From positions 1 through 36,367 of the forward strand of contig JAEUPI010000235.1 in the NCBI GenBank assembly GCA_016790175.1: a DNA stretch of 36,367 nucleotides, written 5' to 3'. The stretch comes from Burkholderiaceae bacterium. GTDB lineage: Bacteria > Pseudomonadota > Gammaproteobacteria > Burkholderiales > Burkholderiaceae_C. Positions 1 to 7,314 of the stretch are shown here, one piece after another. The position numbers and the translations under genes are program-made. The notes below the pieces were generated by a model. That model had not been told where the DNA came from and did not search any database. It saw only the letters and a program-made list of their open reading frames with translations. The first letter of the stretch is position 1, and the number at the start of each line of letters is the position of its first letter.

Positions 1-66
1 GGCACGCCCGAGCAGATCGAGGGCGACGCGCAGGTGCATGCGATCTACATGGGCGCGAAGCACTGA
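1..66 (+). CDS. ABC transporter ATP-binding protein, LivG type (C-terminal end only)
   Basis: Only the last 21 codons are present, ending in TGA; the rest lies left of the window. The final residues ([16 protein letters not shown]) resemble the usual tail of branched-chain amino acid ABC ATPases of the LivG family, where a short acidic stretch is followed by V..AYLG. A LivF-type ATPase gene follows 80 bases later on the same strand, the standard livG-livF order, which supports the call. Periplasmic-binding and permease genes would be expected upstream. The family name is inferred from a short tail plus context. Confidence 0.7.
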
Positions 67-146: not shown

Positions 147-2393
147 ATGTCTTGGTGGTCCCGCTCCTCCATGCCGCCCGACGAAGGCCCCGTGCTCGCC
201 GTCGAGGGCCTCGACGTGTACTACGGCCGCGCGCACGCGCTGCAGGGCGTGAGCTTCACGATCGAGCGCGGCGTGCTCGGCATCGTGGGCCGCAACGGCA
301 TGGGCAAGACCACGCTGTGCAACGCGATCACCGGCCTGGTGAGCGCCACCGGCAGCGTGCGCATGGCCGGCGAGCAGCTTCTCGGCCGCCCGCCGAACGA
401 GATCACGCGGCGCGGCATCGGCTACGTGCCGCAGGGCCGGCGTGTGTGGCCGAGCCTCACGGTCGACGAAACGCTGCGCCTGGTGGCGCGCGAACGCCGC
501 GAGATCGAGCGCATCTACACGATGTTTCCCCGCCTGGCCGAACGCAAGAGCCATGGCGGCGCGCAGCTTTCGGGCGGCGAACAGCAGATGCTGGCGATCG
601 GCCGCGCGCTGCTGCTGCAGCCGCGGCTGCTGGTGATGGACGAGCCCACCGAAGGGCTGGCCCCGGTGATCGTCGAGCAGGTGGCGCAGGCGCTGCGCCA
701 ACTCGCCGCCGACGGCCGCATCGCGGTGCTGCTGATCGAGCAGAACCTCGGCGTCGCGCTCGAGGTGGCCGATCGCATCGGCGTGATGGTCAATGGCCGC
801 ATTGCCGAGCTGTTGCCGGCGGCCGAGCTGGCCGCCGACCGCGACCTGCAGGAGCGGCTACTCGGCGTGAAGAGCGGCGCCGACGATTCGGCGGCACCAG
901 CGCCGTCGGGGCCCGAGCCGGCGGCCGCGAGCCCCGCGCCGGTCACGCAGGTGCTCACGGTGCAGCGCGCACACGGTGACGGCGCCGCGGCGCTCGACGC
1001 GCTGGCGCCGCGTGCGGTGCGAGGCTTCAACCGCTGGAATACCGGCGGCACCGCGGCACCGGTGATCGACGTGCCGCGCAGCGCAGAAGCGTCGCCCGTC
1101 GCCTCTCCTGTGCCTTCGGCGTCGGGCATCGCCACCGCATCGACGGTGCTGCCGTTCCCGGTGGCCGCCGGCAGCGGGCGCGCGGCCTACGTGGCCGGCA
1201 CCTTCGACACCAAGGGCCGCGAGCTCTTCTACCTGCGTCAATGCCTGGAGAAGATCGGCCTGCGCGTGGTGACGGTGGACCTGTCCACCAGCGGCCGCAC
1301 GAGCACGGCGAGCGTGCATCCGCGCGAGGTGGCACGCCACCATCCGCAAGGCGAAGCCGCGGTGTTCAGCGGCGACCGGGGCAGCGCGGTCACGGCGATG
1401 GCCGTCGCCTTCGAACGCTTCGTGCTGACGCGCCGCGACCTGGGCGGCCTGATCTCTGCCGGCGGATCGGGCGGCACCTCGCTGGCCACGCCGGCGATGC
1501 GCGCACTGCCGATCGGCGTGCCCAAGGTCATGGTCAGCACGATGGCCAGCGGCGACACCCGGCCCTACGTGGGGCCGAGCGACATCTGCATGATGTATTC
1601 GGTCACCGATGTGCAGGGCATCAACCGCATCAGCGAGCGCGTGCTCGCCAATGCCGCGCACGCGCTGGCCGGCATGATCGCGCACCCGGTGCACGTGGGC
1701 AGCGCCACCAAGCCGGCCGTCGGCCTCACCATGTTCGGCGTGACCACGCCTTGCGTGCAGCAGGTCACCCAGCGGCTGGCCGAAGACTTCGACTGCCTCG
1801 TCTTCCACGCCACCGGCGTCGGCGGCCAGAGCATGGAAAAGCTCGCCGACTCCGGGTTGCTGGCCGGCGTGATCGACGTGTCGACCACCGAGATCGCCGA
1901 CGAGATCGGCGGCGGTGTGCTCTCGGCGGGGCCGACGCGGCTCGATGTCTTCGCGCGCCACCCCCTGCCCTACGTGGGCAGCTGCGGCGCGCTCGACATG
2001 GTGAACTTCGGCGCCTGGGACACCGTGCCCGAGCGCTTCAAGGGCCGCCGGCTGTACCGGCACAACCCCACGGTCACGCTGATGCGCACCACCGTCGACG
2101 AATGCCGCGCCATCGGCGAATTCGTCGCCGGCAAGCTCAACGCGATGCGTGGGCCGGTGCGCTTCCTGATCCCCGAGGGCGGCGTGTCGGCGATCGACAA
2201 ACCCGGCGCGCCATTCCAAGATCCCGAGGCCGACCGCGTGCTGTTCGACACCATTGCCACACGTTTCCAAACCGGCCCGCAGCGCCAGTTGCTGCGCCTG
2301 CCGCTGCACATCAACGACGAGGCCTTTGCCGCCGCGCTGGTGGCCGCCTGGCGCGAGATCGCGCCTGCCGATGCCGCCGCGCGCCGCGCCTGA
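147..2393 (+). CDS. LivF-type ABC ATPase fused to a Tm-1-like (UPF0261) domain
   Basis: This 748-residue protein has two parts. Residues about 10-240 form a LivF-type ABC ATPase: Walker [10 protein letters not shown] near residue 48, signature LSGGEQQ near 141 and Walker [11 protein letters not shown] near 162. A low-complexity Ala/Pro linker (about 241-343) leads to a Tm-1-like ATP-binding domain (about 344-745) with GTFDTKG, the glycine-rich [26 protein letters not shown] and [15 protein letters not shown]. LivF proteins alone are about 235 residues and UPF0261 proteins about 400, so this is an in-frame fusion with both halves apparently intact. The ABC half should power import of an organic solute; the role of the Tm-1 half is unknown. 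The start may instead be the ATG at 171. The next gene encodes the usual partner domain of Tm-1 proteins. Confidence 0.9.
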
Positions 2394-2412
2394 AAGCCAC
2401 GGAGGACGCCGC

Positions 2413-3276
2413 ATGCCCCGCATCGCCCGCCAGGACATCCTGAACACGCTGCGCGCCAAGGTGGCCGCGGGCCGGCCGATCGTCGGCGGTGGAGCGGGCA
2501 CCGGCCTGTCGGCCAAATGCGAAGAGGCCGGCGGCATCGATCTGATCGTGATCTACAACTCCGGCCGCTATCGCATGGCCGGTCGCGGCTCGCTGGCCGG
2601 CCTGCTGGCCTACGGCAATGCCAACGAGATCGTCTGCGAGATGGCGCACGAGGTGCTGCCGGTCGTGAGGCACACGCCGGTGCTGGCCGGCGTGAATGGC
2701 ACCGACCCGTTCATGATCGGCGACGAGTTTCTGCGCCGGCTGATCGCGCTCGGCTTTTCGGGCGTGCAGAACTTCCCCACCGTCGGCCTGGTCGACGGCA
2801 CCTTCCGTGCCAACCTCGAGGAGACGGGCATGGGCTACGGCCTCGAGGTCGATCTGATCGCCGCGGCGCGGCGGCTGGATCTGCTGACGACGCCCTATGT
2901 GTTCAACGCCGACGAGGCGCGCGCGATGGCCGGCGCCGGCGCCGACATCGTGGTCTGCCACATGGGCCTGACCACCGGCGGGCGCATCGGCGCCGAGACG
3001 GCGCTGAAGCTGGCCGATTGCGTGGAGCCGATCAACGCCTGGGCCGCCGCTGCGAGGGCCGTGAACCCCGAGGTGCTGGTGCTGTGCCACGGCGGCCCGA
3101 TCGCGACGCCCGAGGACGCGCGGTTCATTCTCTCGCGCTGCCCAGGCTGCCACGGTTTCTATGGCGCCAGCTCGATGGAGCGGCTGCCCAGCGAGGTGGC
3201 GTTGACCGAGACCACACGCCGCTTCACCCAGATCACGAGATCGCACGACGGAAAGACAAACGGAGACGCATCATGA
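2413..3276 (+). CDS. TIM-barrel protein, phosphoenolpyruvate-hydrolase-like family
   Basis: The 287-residue product looks like a complete TIM barrel of the PEP hydrolase-like family (the family of the C-terminal half of tomato Tm-1). Visible family features are [11 protein letters not shown] near the N terminus, [53 protein letters not shown] and [13 protein letters not shown] near the C terminus. The start at 2413 has GGAGG just upstream; a longer reading from 2254 has no such support. Its last codons overlap the flotillin start (ATGA). In tomato Tm-1 a UPF0261 domain and this barrel form one chain; here they are adjacent genes, so they probably work together. The family resembles phosphonopyruvate/PEP-type enzymes, but the reaction has not been assigned. 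Confidence 0.9.
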
Positions 3277-4964
3277 CCGGCGCTCAATTCGGCCAGTTCA
3301 TCCTCGGCCTCATCGTGGCGGCGATCGTCGTCGCCATCGTCGTCTGGCTGCTGCACTGGCTGTATCTGCGCAGCAGCAAGGAGCGCGCCTTCGTGCGCAC
3401 AGGCCTCGGCGGCCAGAAGGTGGTGCTCGACGGCGGCGCCTTCGTGCTGCCGATCGTGCACGACGTGATTCCGGTGAACATGAACACGCTGCGGTTGGAA
3501 GTGGCGCGCGGCCGCGACAAGGCGCTGATCACCAAGGACCGCATGCGTGTCGACGTGATCGCCGAGTTCTACGTGCGCGTGGCGGCCCGCGCCGAGAGCG
3601 TGGCCGCCGCCGCCCAGACGCTGGGCCTGCGCACGATGGAGCCCGAGCAGCTGAAGGAGCTGGTCGAGGGCAAGTTCATCGACGCACTGCGCACGGCAGC
3701 CGCCGAGATGACGATGGAGGAGCTGCACGAAAAACGCGGCCAGTACGTGCGCCGTGTGCGCGAGACGGTGGCCGGCGACCTGACCAAGAACGGCCTCGAA
3801 CTCGAAGCCGCGTCGCTGACGCAGCTCGACCAGACCGGCATGGAGTTCTTCAACCCGAGCAACGCCTTCGACGCCGAGGGCCTGACGCGGCTGACCGAGC
3901 AGATCGAGCGCCGCAAGAAGCAGCGCAACGATGTCGAGCAGGACACGCTGGTGGCGATCCGCAACAAGAACCTCGAAGCCGAGAAGCTCTCGCTCGAGAT
4001 CGAGCGCGAAGCCGAATCCGCACGCCTGGCGCAGCAGCGCGAGGTGGAGATCGCCCGTGCGCGGCAGCGTGCCGAGGTGACGGCCGAGCGCGCGCAGCGC
4101 GAGCAGGCAGCCGAGCAGGCGCAGATCGGCGCCAAGCAGGCGATCGAGGTGGCGAAGATCCGCTCCGAGGAGAGCCTGGAGCAGGAACGCATCGAGAAGG
4201 AACGCGCCCTGCAGACGGCCGAAGTCGAGCGCCGCCAGGCGCTCGAGCTGGCCGAGCAGCAGCGCGCGATCGCGATCGCTCGCGAGAGCGAGAAGCAAAG
4301 CGAGGCCCAGGCCGCCGCCGAGGCGGCGCGCGCCAAGGCAGTGGCGGCGGAGGAGAAAGTGTTCACCGCTCGAGAGCTCGAGGCAGCCGAGCGCAAGAAG
4401 AGCATCGAGCTGATCGCTGCCGCGCAGGCCGCCGAGCGAGAGGCGCTGCGCCTGACGGTGGCCGCACGCGCCGAGAAGCAGGCCAGCGGCGACCGCGGCG
4501 AAGCCATCCGCGCGCAGGCCGAGGCCGATGCCGATGCGGAGAAGATCCGCGCCCTCGCCGCTCGGTTGCGCGCGGAGATCGAGGCCGAGGCCACGCGCAT
4601 GATGAACGAAGCGCAGAACGTGCTGTCGCCCGAGGCCCGCGCATCGGCGCTGCGCCTGAAGCTGGTGGAGAAGGCCGAGGCGATCATCCGCGAGGCCGTG
4701 CGGCCGATGGAGCGCATCGAAGGCATCAAGATCCTGCATGTCGAAGGCCTGGCCGGCGGCGGCGGCGCGAATGGCGACGCGGGCAGCGGCGGCTTCGCCG
4801 ACGGCGTGGTGAACTCGGCGCTGCGCTTCCGCGCGCAGGCGCCGATCGTCGACCAGCTGCTGCGCGAGATCGGCCTCGAGAGCGGCGACATCTCGCGCCT
4901 GACGGCGGGCGCCGCAGGCGGCACGGCGGCGCTGCCGCCGGCCACGCCACAGGAAAAATCGTGA
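3273..4964 (+). CDS. Flotillin-like SPFH membrane protein
   Basis: This 563-residue protein has one N-terminal membrane segment (about residues 8-30, rich in Val/Ile), an SPFH/band-7 domain (about 30-200; [24 protein letters not shown]) and a very long Glu/Ala/Arg-rich coiled coil (about 205-480). A Gly-rich C-terminal section follows. This is the flotillin (YqiK-like) architecture; such proteins form oligomeric membrane scaffolds. It overlaps the upstream barrel gene by four bases, so coupled translation is likely. Bacterial flotillins often sit beside an NfeD gene, but none is seen here. It may organise the transporter or the downstream enzymes at the membrane, which is inference from position only. 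A long in-frame extension to 2517 merely shadows the barrel gene. Confidence 0.92.
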
Positions 4965-4983
4965 GCGTGGGAGCACGGCCCAC

Positions 4984-5424
4984 ATGATCCGCATCTACGT
5001 CTCGTCGGTGATCGATGCCGCGGCCGACACCGTGTGGTCGCGCATCCGCGACTTCAACGCATTGCCGCTGTGGCATCCGGCCATTGCCGACAGCCGCATC
5101 GAGAACCAGGAGCCGAGCGACCGCGTCGGCTGCATCCGCCACTTCCACACGCGCGACGGCGGCATGATCCGCGAGCGGCTGCTGGCCCTGTCGGACTACG
5201 ACTACACCTGCACCTACGAGATCCTCGAAAGCCCGATGGGCGTGGCCAACTACGTGGCCACGCTGAAGCTGGCGCCGGTGACCGATGGCGGACGCACCTT
5301 CGCCGAATGGAGCGCCGAGTTCGATTGCGACGAAAGCCGCCAGCACGAGCTGACCGAGGGCATCGGGCAGGGCGTGTTCCAGGCCGGCTTCGACGCGCTG
5401 AAACGCCACTTCGCGAGGCGCTGA
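4984..5424 (+). CDS. SRPBCC (START/Bet v1-like) family protein
   Basis: A 146-residue, single-domain SRPBCC protein that binds small hydrophobic ligands in a helix-grip fold. Typical features are the N-terminal strand ending in DAAADTVWSRIRDF, the W-H-P motif after it, the DRVGCIRHF strand, and a C-terminal helix (GVFQAGFDALKRHF). It starts 20 bases after the flotillin stop. It is clearly paralogous to the first domain of the next gene: both share IRDFN, SRIE, VGC, YVAT and KPVTDG/APVTDG-type blocks at the same places. Ligand and reaction are unknown; this family includes aromatic-compound cyclases, hydratases and carriers. Confidence 0.88.
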   Translation: MIRIYVSSVIDAAADTVWSRIRDFNALPLWHPAIADSRIENQEPSDRVGCIRHFHTRDGGMIRERLLALSDYDYTCTYEILESPMGVANYVATLKLAPVTDGGRTFAEWSAEFDCDESRQHELTEGIGQGVFQAGFDALKRHFARR

Positions 5425-5430
5425 GGCTGC

Positions 5431-6906
5431 ATGCTCCAACGCGTGGTCCGCTCGACGATCATCGACGCGCCGATCGAGCGCGTCTGGGCGGTGATCCGCG
5501 ATTTCAACAGCCACGACCAATGGCACGCCGTGGTCGACAAGAGCCGCATCGAAAGCGGCGAGAAGAGCGACCAGGTCGGCTGCGTGCGCAACTTCACGCT
5601 GAAGGACGGCCACCGCATCCGCGAGCAGCTGCTCACGCTCGACGACCGCGAACACAAGAGCACCTACTGCATCGTCGAGGCCACGGTGCCGTTGCAGCGC
5701 TACGTGGCCACCGTGACGCTGAAGCCGGTGACCGACGGCAACCGCACCTTCTGGCATTGGGAGAGCACGTTTGCCACACCGGCCGGCATGGAGCGCGAGC
5801 TGCGCGAGATGGTGGCCCAGGGCGTTTACGAGGCCGGGTTCGACAACCTGCGACGGCATCTGCGCGAGGGCGGCGATCTGCGGCTTCCCGGCTCGCCCGG
5901 CGCGGCATCGAATCCGATGCCGCTCGCTCTGCTGGTGCCGTCGCGCCGCATCGTCGTGCGGCACTATGGCGGAGCTGACCAGCTGGTGGCCGAGGATCAC
6001 GATTGCCCGGCGCCCGGCCCCGGCGAGGTGCGCATCCGCCAGCGTGCGATTGGCGTCAACTTCATCGACGTCTACCTGCGCAGAGGCTGGATTCCGCCGA
6101 TGCTCGCCGAGGGCGGCACGCCCGGCATGGAGGCAGCCGGCAGCGTGCTCGATGTCGGCGAGAGCGTCAACGGCCTGCTGCCGGGCGACCGCGTGGCCTA
6201 CCTGGGCCCGGTGCCCGGCAGCTACTGCCGCGTGCGCAACGTGCCCGCCGATTGGGTGGTGCGTCTGCCGCCTTCCGTCGAGGACGACACCGCCGCGGCC
6301 CTGTTGCTCAAGGGCCTGACCGCCGACTATCTGGTGCACGACCTCGGTCGCGTCGGCCCCGGCACGAGGCTGCTGGTGCATGCGGCCGCCGGCGGCGTCG
6401 GGCTGCTGGTGTGTGCCTGGGCCCGCCGGCTGGGCGCCATCGTGATCGGCACCGTGTCGAGTGAAGACAAGGCCCGCCTGGCGCGCGAACACGGCTGCGA
6501 GCAGGTGATCGTGACGCGCGACTATCGATTTGCCGACGCGGTGCAGCGTCTCGGCGGCGCCGACGTGCTCATCGACGGCCTCGGCGACGCTGCCCGCGAC
6601 GAGAACCTGGCGGCGCTGGCGCGCCGCGGGCACTGGATCAGCCTGGGCCAGGCCACCGGTGCCCTGCAGCCGATCGATCCCAACGTCCTGGTGGCCAAGA
6701 GCATCACGTTTTCGCGGCCGGTGGTCTTCGACTACATGGCCACGCACGAGGCGCTCGCGATGCGCGCCGAGCGTGTCTGGCGGGCGCTGGCCGACGGCAC
6801 CCTGCGCACTCCGCGGGTGGAGCGCCACGCACTCGACGCCGCCGGCTCGGCGCACGCGCGGCTGGAGTCACGTGCAACCACCGGTGCCTTGGTGCTGGTG
6901 GCCTGA
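5431..6906 (+). CDS. SRPBCC domain fused to quinone-oxidoreductase-like MDR enzyme
   Basis: A 491-residue two-domain protein. Residues 1 to about 148 form an SRPBCC domain paralogous to the upstream gene. After a short linker, residues about 163-491 form a zinc-free medium-chain dehydrogenase/reductase of the NADPH:quinone oxidoreductase type: GVNFIDVYLRRG, GTPGMEAAGSV, the AAAGGVGLLV nucleotide loop and a Rossmann segment ending in LAREHGCEQVI. It begins seven bases after the previous stop. An internal ATG at 5917 sits exactly at the domain junction but has no visible ribosome-binding site, so one polypeptide is favoured. The fusion suggests the SRPBCC domain presents a hydrophobic or conjugated carbonyl substrate to the reductase; this is inference. 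Confidence 0.88.
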   Translation: MLQRVVRSTIIDAPIERVWAVIRDFNSHDQWHAVVDKSRIESGEKSDQVGCVRNFTLKDGHRIREQLLTLDDREHKSTYCIVEATVPLQRYVATVTLKPVTDGNRTFWHWESTFATPAGMERELREMVAQGVYEAGFDNLRRHLREGGDLRLPGSPGAASNPMPLALLVPSRRIVVRHYGGADQLVAEDHDCPAPGPGEVRIRQRAIGVNFIDVYLRRGWIPPMLAEGGTPGMEAAGSVLDVGESVNGLLPGDRVAYLGPVPGSYCRVRNVPADWVVRLPPSVEDDTAAALLLKGLTADYLVHDLGRVGPGTRLLVHAAAGGVGLLVCAWARRLGAIVIGTVSSEDKARLAREHGCEQVIVTRDYRFADAVQRLGGADVLIDGLGDAARDENLAALARRGHWISLGQATGALQPIDPNVLVAKSITFSRPVVFDYMATHEALAMRAERVWRALADGTLRTPRVERHALDAAGSAHARLESRATTGALVLVA

Positions 6907-6933: not shown

Positions 6934-7314
6934 ATGATCCAGGGCATGAACCACTTCACCATCACCGCCGAAGACCGCGAACGCACGCTCGACTTCTATT
7001 GCGGTCTGCTGGGTCTGGTGGAAGGTCCGCGCCCCGATCTCGGTTTTCCCGGGGCCTGGCTGTACCCGCCCGCTGGCGGAGCGGCCGTGCTGCACATCTA
7101 CTGGGACCGGCCGATGCCGAGCCTGCGCACCGGTGTGATCGATCACATGGCCTTCACCGCGTCGGGCCTGCGCGAGGTGAAGGCGCGCTTCGATGCCCGT
7201 GGCATCGGCTACGACCTGCGGCGCCAGGCCGGCGCGCAAACCTGGCAGCTCTTCAGCCTCGACCCGAACGGCGCGAAGGTCGAACTCGACTTCGACCCCG
7301 CGGAAAGCCTTTGA
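6934..7314 (+). CDS. VOC (glyoxalase/dioxygenase-fold) family protein
   Basis: The 126-residue product has the paired beta-alpha-beta-beta-beta plan of the vicinal oxygen chelate superfamily. Likely metal ligands are His in NHFTI near the start, His in VIDHMAF in the middle and Glu in KVELDFD at the end. The C-terminal DPNGAKVELDF block is typical of VOC proteins. A GGAG-containing sequence precedes the ATG at 6934; a second ATG lies five codons later. It is the last gene of the right-going cluster and meets sppA head-on. Members include glyoxalases, extradiol dioxygenases and epimerases, and the sequence does not decide between them. Confidence 0.88.
   Translation: MIQGMNHFTITAEDRERTLDFYCGLLGLVEGPRPDLGFPGAWLYPPAGGAAVLHIYWDRPMPSLRTGVIDHMAFTASGLREVKARFDARGIGYDLRRQAGAQTWQLFSLDPNGAKVELDFDPAESL

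Follow-up and report, generated by a model that had tools for sequence, protein, structure and literature searches.

A LivF/UrtE-like ABC transporter ATPase fused to a Tm-1-like UPF0261 domain and encoded beside a PEP_hydrolase-like barrel in a Burkholderiaceae bacterium

Tm-1 is a virus-resistance protein of tomato, in which a UPF0261 domain and a triosephosphate isomerase (TIM) barrel share one chain and whose known role is the inhibition of a virus helicase/replication protein. According to PMC5028733, the two Tm-1 domains are generally encoded apart outside plants; the main text of that report mentions neither 'ABC' nor 'transporter'. Here we describe a window of 36,367 nucleotides, the whole of contig JAEUPI010000235.1 in the assembly GCA_016790175.1 of a Burkholderiaceae bacterium, in which a UPF0261 domain is joined in one reading frame to the ATPase of an ATP-binding cassette (ABC) importer. 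The UPF0261 domain has the same fold as that of Tm-1 (3wrx_A) and the neighbouring barrel gene belongs to the same barrel family, but whereas the plant protein holds both domains in one chain, the window has a separate barrel gene and carries its UPF0261 domain on the importer ATPase.

Two other described relatives are of known structure. Saro_1862 of Novosphingobium aromaticivorans (9mpy), a UPF0261 protein solved with acetovanillone bound, shows 34% identity in a Foldseek match to the window's UPF0261 and has the DTK, STMASGxTxPYxG, HNP and ND motifs in common with it; given this structure, the description of the Tm-1 family as still unassigned, made in a first-pass annotation of the window, is slightly outdated. 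Unlike the window's protein, Saro_1862 is unfused, and the window's UPF0261 scores 319 bits with Tm-1 compared to 214 with 9mpy. Mll9387 (2p10) is the closest solved chain to the window's barrel (residues 3-276, 419 bits). A plasmid locus of Mesorhizobium japonicum also pairs a barrel of this kind with UPF0261; the pair is adjoined there by genes for a cupin, an oxidoreductase of the Gfo/Idh/MocA type and a sigma-54 activator, and the stretch examined holds no Liv importer. Concerning the importer, CouPSTU (aromatics) and UrtABCDE (urea) have the LivHMGF plus Peripla_BP_6 architecture that is also found here, and no enzyme domain is known on the ATPase of either system. In MalK, ModC, MetN and NrtC, an extra domain lies C-terminal to the nucleotide-binding domain (NBD), as it does in the fusion, which differs from all four in its UPF0261 domain, in its long, disordered and motif-bearing linker and in the partner barrel gene next door. 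No description of an ABC-UPF0261 fusion was found in the literature searched, and a wider search there for ABC proteins joined to enzymes gave no match. Databases already list such fusions, under names like 'ABC transporter permease', and the sequence is known, but the architecture and its meaning appear to be undescribed within that literature. The fusion gene, its parts and the barrel gene are as follows.

147..2393, plus strand: fusion gene of 748 amino acids (aa), LivF-like ATPase, linker and UPF0261 in a single open frame
189..869, plus strand: ABC ATPase domain with Walker A, LSGGE signature and Walker B (Pfam ABC_tran, residues 32-168)
873..1172, plus strand: disordered linker, residues 243-342 (predicted local distance difference test score, pLDDT, below 50)
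951..971, plus strand: linker motif 1, VLTVQRA, resembling (V/I)-F-T-V-x-R-A (R274 invariant and V272 nearly so in 42 aligned fusions)
1011..1046, plus strand: linker motif 2 with the core [TN]RW
1185..1682, plus strand: UPF0261 N-terminal domain (Pfam, residues 347-512, 210 bits)
1710..2360, plus strand: UPF0261 C-terminal domain, UPF0261_C (Pfam, residues 522-738, 298 bits)
2413..3276, plus strand: PEP_hydrolase-like TIM-barrel protein of 287 aa (PF09370, 433 bits against a cut-off of 33.8)

The two UPF0261 profiles (PF06792 and PF23189) each have a cut-off of 27 bits, and the scores above place the complete, Tm-1-like domain of the window protein within the family. An AlphaFold2 model built on the 42 aligned fusions is ordered at both ends of the chain, with the low-confidence linker between them, and the UPF0261 domain as modelled (model pLDDT 82.7) was matched by Foldseek to Tm-1 3wrx_A with an E value of 3.7e-42 and a TM-score of 0.82, which assigns it to the Tm-1 fold. 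The name 'Tm-1-like ATP-binding domain' comes from annotation, and ATP binding by UPF0261 is predicted from this name. The NBD motifs were present in nearly all of 84 fused proteins compared (Walker A in 81, signature and Walker B in 84 each). The ATPase scored below both NCBIfam equivalog cut-offs (LivF, 156 of 441; UrtE, 213 of 286); it is LivF/UrtE-like and is not filed as LivF or UrtE. Thus, the complete ATPase, the linker of about 100 residues and the complete UPF0261 domain reported earlier in one frame were all recovered, while the label 'LivF-type' stands for a likeness and not for a curated class, and the linker is not mere Ala/Pro, since it holds conserved motifs.

When GTDB genomes were searched with the fusion protein as query, at least 579 relatives were returned, and in the best-scoring 80 loci (L040-L119, near-identical loci included) the fused frame was uninterrupted in every case; these other genomes include a plasmid of a named Variovorax paradoxus isolate. 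Because the 80 loci were picked by similarity, evenly drawn samples weigh more. UPF0261 was borne by 21 of 300 genomes sampled from the order, 13 of 369 from the class and 38 of 398 from the phylum (the window's own genome counted each time), and fused forms beyond the own genome were found in 8, 2 and 13 of these, respectively, 23 in total. The 13 phylum-sample fusions are every frame longer than 700 aa there except the own one, and unfused copies in that sample were examined where they had been given a locus; five of the eight order-sample fusions are identical in the tree described below to members of the 80 and are therefore not independent of them. In addition, all seven compared pairs showed purifying selection on both halves, with ratios of nonsynonymous to synonymous change (pN/pS) of 0.07-0.36 for the ATPase and 0.12-0.34 for UPF0261; the linker, at 0.33-0.57 in the same pairs, is under weaker constraint that is still below 1. 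The fusion of the ABC ATPase to UPF0261 is confirmed as genuine, and the search for the fused architecture with a table of flanking genes, which had been proposed as a check, recovered it in all 80 loci and in the 23 sampled genomes.

The barrel gene, identified at first pass as the PEP-hydrolase-like barrel of Tm-1, is indeed a member of PEP_hydrolase by both its profile score and its homology to 2p10. It is the single copy found in this assembly (82% complete) and has a GGAGG just 5' of it. A barrel gene lies directly 3' of the fusion in 73 of 73 related loci with room for it and in 21 of the 23 sampled fusions; the co-occurrence is therefore conserved, and the importer link of UPF0261, once taken to stand 'instead' of the barrel, is additional, as the barrel stays next door. 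Unfused UPF0261 proteins at least 44% identical to the window's also have an adjoining barrel (7/7 in the order sample and 16/16 among the phylum copies given a locus), while copies at most 36% identical have none in their short loci (7/7 and 3/3 for order and phylum, respectively). The class loci are mixed: a barrel accompanies L132 (37%) and L133 (52%), and none was seen with L129 (56%), L131 (54%, in a shorter locus) or L134-L136 (30-37%). Haloferax volcanii alone had both families among 14 control genomes. Judged by gene neighbourhood, the barrel travels with the Tm-1-like branch of UPF0261.

The barrel comparison excluded proteins of 40-55% identity and took in 101 that share over 55% identity with the barrel of the window; in these, each of the residues K35, E38, R58, E80, E137, H183 and H226 is conserved at a level of at least 98%. 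The five barrels of low identity are those of three sigma-54 activators (L124, L125 and L127, with L125 classified from its record annotation alone), the unclassified L156 and a distant operon barrel, L126. All seven residues are altered in the three activators; H183, for example, is kept in both operon sets and replaced by N in the activators. From this pattern we infer that the seven residues may be catalytic. Two of the activators (L124:15623-17452 and L127:6120-7901), which carry the PEP_hydrolase barrel at their N terminus, lie near unfused UPF0261 genes, and the barrel fold was probably reused in them as a sensor.

The linker alignments comprised 92 fused proteins, of which 84 (L001 and L040-L122) were used for motif counts; aligned linker length in these 84 ranges from 68 to 126 aa, with a median of 95. 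The [TN]RW core was present in 75 of the 84, compared to a mean of 0.56 and a maximum of 3 in composition-preserving shuffles; as the rows are related and near-copies were retained, the independent cases are fewer than 75. The core also occurs in all 13 phylum-sample fusions, which lie outside the window's class, in a different context (e.g., PTRWSQPVP and PNRWNVPV), and it is retained while the remaining linker diverges. By these motif counts, the linker is probably more than passive filler. The linker of L106 from Ramlibacter contains an in-frame insert, FPRRRESR...LRGDD, and has NQWN in place of [TN]RWN; to judge by its motif, the insert looks like a dispersed repeat.

A tree of UPF0261 was constructed from 60 rows (55 different, 34 fused), with L023 excluded as it gave no usable UPF0261 match. 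A single branch, with support of 92/88 and present in 93% of 200 bootstrap trees, separates the 34 fused rows from the others, and the fused group is free of unfused rows. The fusion most likely arose once, to judge from this topology; the deep part of the tree is unsure because of several long branches. In Thermomicrobium and in L156, genes for LivH, LivM, a binding protein, LivG, LivF, UPF0261 and the barrel follow one another in this order with LivF and UPF0261 separate, which shows that this gene neighbourhood also occurs where the two are not fused. The neighbourhoods of unfused UPF0261 genes, which were annotated in part, are otherwise varied: some UPF0261 and barrel pairs adjoin a sugar-type ABC system and others lie near a tripartite-tricarboxylate binding protein, while more distant UPF0261 proteins have no barrel and occur in aromatic-type clusters, a cluster with biotin carboxylase and phosphatase being another such setting in other genomes. 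The proposed link of the Tm-1 family to solute import accordingly holds for the fused Liv-type branch and is not supported for the family as a whole.

The window's own genome has two further UPF0261 genes. One, which is unfused, is in a phenylphosphate synthase-like cluster (L154:4832-11991, contig C190), between a phenylphosphate-carboxylase-beta UbiD gene (576 bits against 469) and a CBS/UbiX pair; the other (L155:8326-11587, contig C167) adjoins a class-III aminotransferase and a haloacid dehalogenase (HAD) hydrolase.

The window, a contig of a 283-contig assembly, starts inside livG, 146 bases before the fusion gene. Contig C278 ends with 141 bases identical to the start of the window and overlaps it there; its LivG is 81% identical to the Variovorax copy, and its gene order is fumarylacetoacetate (FAA) hydrolase, alpha/beta hydrolase, two amidohydrolases, LivH, LivM, binding protein and LivG. 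With LivH, LivM, LivG and a binding protein in the operon, the importer is of the Liv type. As GC-based gene calling was unreliable in this GC-rich DNA, the operon was labelled by homology. The remaining operon features in the window are listed below.

1..66, plus strand: 3' end of livG (first Liv ATPase), its frame ending ...MGAKH*, with the remainder on contig C278
3273..4964, plus strand: flotillin (Pfam SPFH/Band_7 and Flot)
4984..5424, plus strand: SRPBCC protein 1 (Pfam Polyketide_cyc2)
5431..6906, plus strand: SRPBCC protein 2 fused to a quinone-oxidoreductase-like ADH_N/ADH_zinc_N domain (profile matches)
6934..7314, plus strand: vicinal oxygen chelate (VOC)/glyoxalase-like protein, a variable operon member (73% identity to a VOC gene of V. 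paradoxus; Pfam Glyoxalase)

Across the 80 loci, a gene was counted if it lay at most 2.5 kb from its expected place, and loci too short for a gene were excluded from its total. Counted in this way, the importer genes were invariant (LivG 74/74, binding protein 71/71, LivM 67/67 and LivH 61/61), which together with the C278 overlap bears out the proposed tie to a Liv-type importer. The alpha/beta hydrolase was found in 55/55 and the FAA hydrolase in 41/55; two amidohydrolases were present in 53 of the 58 loci with 7.6 kb upstream and one in the remaining five. Downstream, flotillin (68/68), SRPBCC1 (65/65), SRPBCC2 (62/62) and the quinone oxidoreductase (60/60) were constant, and the VOC gene was found in 31/54. 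From its gene content, the operon looks like an uptake and breakdown pathway. A second operon type, found in Shinella, in Yoonia and in 10 of the 13 phylum-sample fusions, has genes for a CoxM/CoxL-type molybdenum hydroxylase downstream, with MoxR labelled in nine of the ten; the other three fusions (L191, L195 and L201) have FAA hydrolase, alpha/beta hydrolase and amidohydrolase. The SRPBCC-quinone-oxidoreductase fusion at 5431-6906 is itself conserved across the operon. In one molybdenum-hydroxylase-type operon (L121:13034-15661) the flotillin is 876 aa long, with about 500 aa between Band_7 and Flot that gave no Pfam match at E 0.001. The gap between livG and the fusion gene (67-146) contains a GC inverted repeat, GCCCCCCGAGGGGGC, where both contigs end in the 141-base overlap; it may be a dispersed repeat at which the assembly was interrupted.

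The reading that we favour, with moderate confidence, is that the second ATPase of the Liv-type importer bears UPF0261 on a flexible tether of about 100 aa, and that UPF0261 and the PF09370 barrel are the two halves of one catabolic enzyme. LivG would pair with the LivF domain on LivH/LivM, and the tether would keep UPF0261, and via UPF0261 the barrel, where the permease opens into the cytoplasm, so that there the imported compound would meet its first enzyme at once. Flotillin, together with UPF0261 dimers if these form, may cluster importer units; such dimers are reportedly present in Tm-1 crystals. If true, this would be a case, to our knowledge a rare one, of an importer ATPase with a metabolic-enzyme-like domain permanently attached, here with a conserved linker motif. 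The fusion ties one branch of the Tm-1 family to a defined importer, whose binding protein can be purified and screened for ligands, thus offering a handle on the role of the Tm-1-like family.

The neighbours of the acetovanillone branch suggest a specific, testable activity for UPF0261, namely ATP-dependent phosphorylation. Among the UPF0261 proteins compared, the nearest to 9mpy are those of L186/L202 (69%) and L134/L203 (54%); the window's, with 38% identity over 338 aa, is not of the Saro_1862 subfamily, as indicated by this lower identity, its different neighbours and the barrel-less genomes of the 9mpy relatives. In L202:8960-14287 and L203:4008-12283, a 9mpy-like UPF0261 gene lies directly beside genes for biotin carboxylase, a carboxyltransferase of the HMGL/PYC_OADA type and a HAD phosphatase. 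Between the two loci, the genes for carboxylase and phosphatase are homologous (46-60%); L203 also has an acyl-coenzyme A (CoA)-synthetase-like AMP-binding protein and a XylR_N sigma-54 activator of the aromatic-catabolism type. Probes for PPDK_N or PEP-utilizer kinases found no match in either 18-kb locus. In the acetovanillone pathway as outlined in PMC9618137, the kinase HpeHI is followed by the carboxylase HpeCBA, which accepts the phosphorylated substrate only, the NagD-like phosphatase HpeD and the CoA synthetase HpeE; in Rhodococcus, HpeE is given there as a CoA synthetase and HpeF as a CoA hydrolase, and the authors consider that phosphorylation may help uptake and prevent loss. The biotin carboxylase, carboxyltransferase and HAD phosphatase of this Hpe/Acv hydroxyphenylethanone pathway are matched in the 9mpy-like loci, orthology to HpeCBA being putative. 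UPF0261 may thus be an ATP-dependent kinase, because it occupies the place of the HpeHI kinase beside a phosphatase that would otherwise be pointless; a kinase is the simplest reading, drawn by analogy, of UPF0261 in these clusters, in which it may represent the missing aryl-ketone kinase. A correspondence of UPF0261 and the barrel to VceA/VceB of SYK-6 was considered and not shown, VceB being described as a thioesterase; N. aromaticivorans F199 is said, in PMC11837543, to have no VceA/VceB homologues.

Carried over to the fusion, these clues would have the UPF0261 kinase phosphorylate and trap the incoming compound, after which the barrel would act on the phosphorylated or enol product; we regard this as possible but doubtful. 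In a more far-reaching and improbable version, import would be coupled to phosphorylation by a UPF0261 kinase on a disordered arm whose conserved RW motif docks the barrel, flotillin or SRPBCC, the barrel would cleave the product, and the family from which plants derived Tm-1 would originally have served to activate small molecules of plant origin with ATP.

Several observations weigh against the two-part enzyme and its kinase extension. The barrel is a putative enzyme, the family name PEP_hydrolase resting on similarity. The fusions of L195 and L201 lack an adjacent barrel, and the sole PF09370 gene there adjoins a second, unfused UPF0261 gene. The distant operon barrel of L126 keeps K35, E80 and both histidines and does not keep E38, R58 and E137; since it is about equally far from the window's barrel, part of the residue contrast reflects distance. 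The [TN]RW core is missing in nine of the 84 linkers (L106 and L093-L101 except L096). The kinase clue may not transfer, as its branch is 31-38% identical to the window's UPF0261 and a PF09370 gene was not found in the genomes of the two UPF0261 proteins nearest to 9mpy. Two clusters (L154 of the own genome and L123), including that of Thermomicrobium, hold both UPF0261 and a PPDK_N/PEP-utilizer kinase, so that UPF0261 is no simple substitute for the latter, and in genome G418 a PPDK_N frame stands alone on a different contig. The importer operon also differs from the Hpe/Acv pathway in its lack of carboxylase and phosphatase genes: probes for biotin carboxylase, carboxyltransferase and HAD found no match in the importer operons L120, L153 (the own C278), L189 and L191, and in the window, which lay outside the probe search, these families are absent among the five Pfam-scanned genes from 147 to 6906. 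Finally, all five importer subunits (L120:10527-14947 and window 147-869) score best with the UrtA-E urea-transporter models and not with Liv, each below its cut-off, and an aromatic substrate is therefore not favoured.

Other explanations of the fusion have to be considered alongside the two-part enzyme. UPF0261 could be a regulatory tail like those of MalK, ModC, MetN or NrtC, slowing the importer when ATP or a ligand inside the cell is bound, with the barrel as an accessory sensor. The barrel domains in sigma-54 activators encoded next to unfused UPF0261, the small aromatic ligand in the solved UPF0261 structure and the regulatory NBD tails of other importers are in line with this; however, the disordered linker of about 100 aa is unlike the short joins of known regulatory tails, close operon barrels keep the candidate catalytic residues lost in activator barrels, and UPF0261 and barrel pairs commonly have no ABC ATPase gene next to them, which makes such a role rather unlikely. 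The fusion might also merely fix a 1:1 expression of neighbours by a passive linker, with no coupling of transport to catalysis. This would agree with the gene order of Thermomicrobium and L156, where LivF and UPF0261 are neighbours in the same sequence but unfused, with a linker that evolves faster than the domains and with the two genomes that manage without a barrel beside the fusion. We nevertheless consider it quite unlikely, as the fused group of the tree holds no unfused row and the linker motifs occur far above the shuffled expectation.

It is very improbable that the chain is cut or re-initiated within the linker to give separate LivF and UPF0261 proteins, even though a linker predicted to be disordered would be protease-accessible and one in-frame GTG (codon 241) is preceded by a Shine-Dalgarno-like stretch. 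That GTG falls just where the ATPase domain ends, and 51 of the 84 linker regions are methionine-free; translation of a separate UPF0261 from an internal ATG was rejected for the window, whose linker has no such in-frame codon. The chance of an assembly or frameshift artefact joining two genes, raised at first pass for the region near 870-1180, is practically nil: the assembly is fragmented and a contig end lies close to the gene, but the same open frame recurs in other genomes, and the 80 open frames, the sampled genomes and the purifying selection in seven of seven pairs rule such an artefact out.

With regard to the substrate, the first-pass annotation had looked to the binding protein encoded upstream of livG; the gene was found on C278, with a Variovorax counterpart at L120:12710-13972, and it provides clues to the compound. 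Against the PDB, the binding protein scored 161 bits with 4zpj, 98 with 4evq, 85 with 4ey3 and 25 with the Leu/Ile/Val-binding protein, and binding proteins of the 4evq/4ey3 type bind aromatics. One operon amidohydrolase, searched in the PDB, resembles arginine carboxypeptidase (137 bits), Xaa-Pro dipeptidase (136) and ochratoxinase (112). It is well documented that some ABC binding proteins recognise aromatics derived from lignin (PMC3610893 and PMC3223731). Our best guess, held tentatively, is a hydrophobic, aromatic or amide-linked compound.

Two of the fusions recovered in the genome scan, L058 and L093, are on contigs titled as metagenome-assembled genomes of Bordetella parapertussis and Rickettsia typhi, respectively. 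Their proteins nest among the Comamonadaceae/Sphaerotilaceae fusions, and by this placement the organism labels look wrong.

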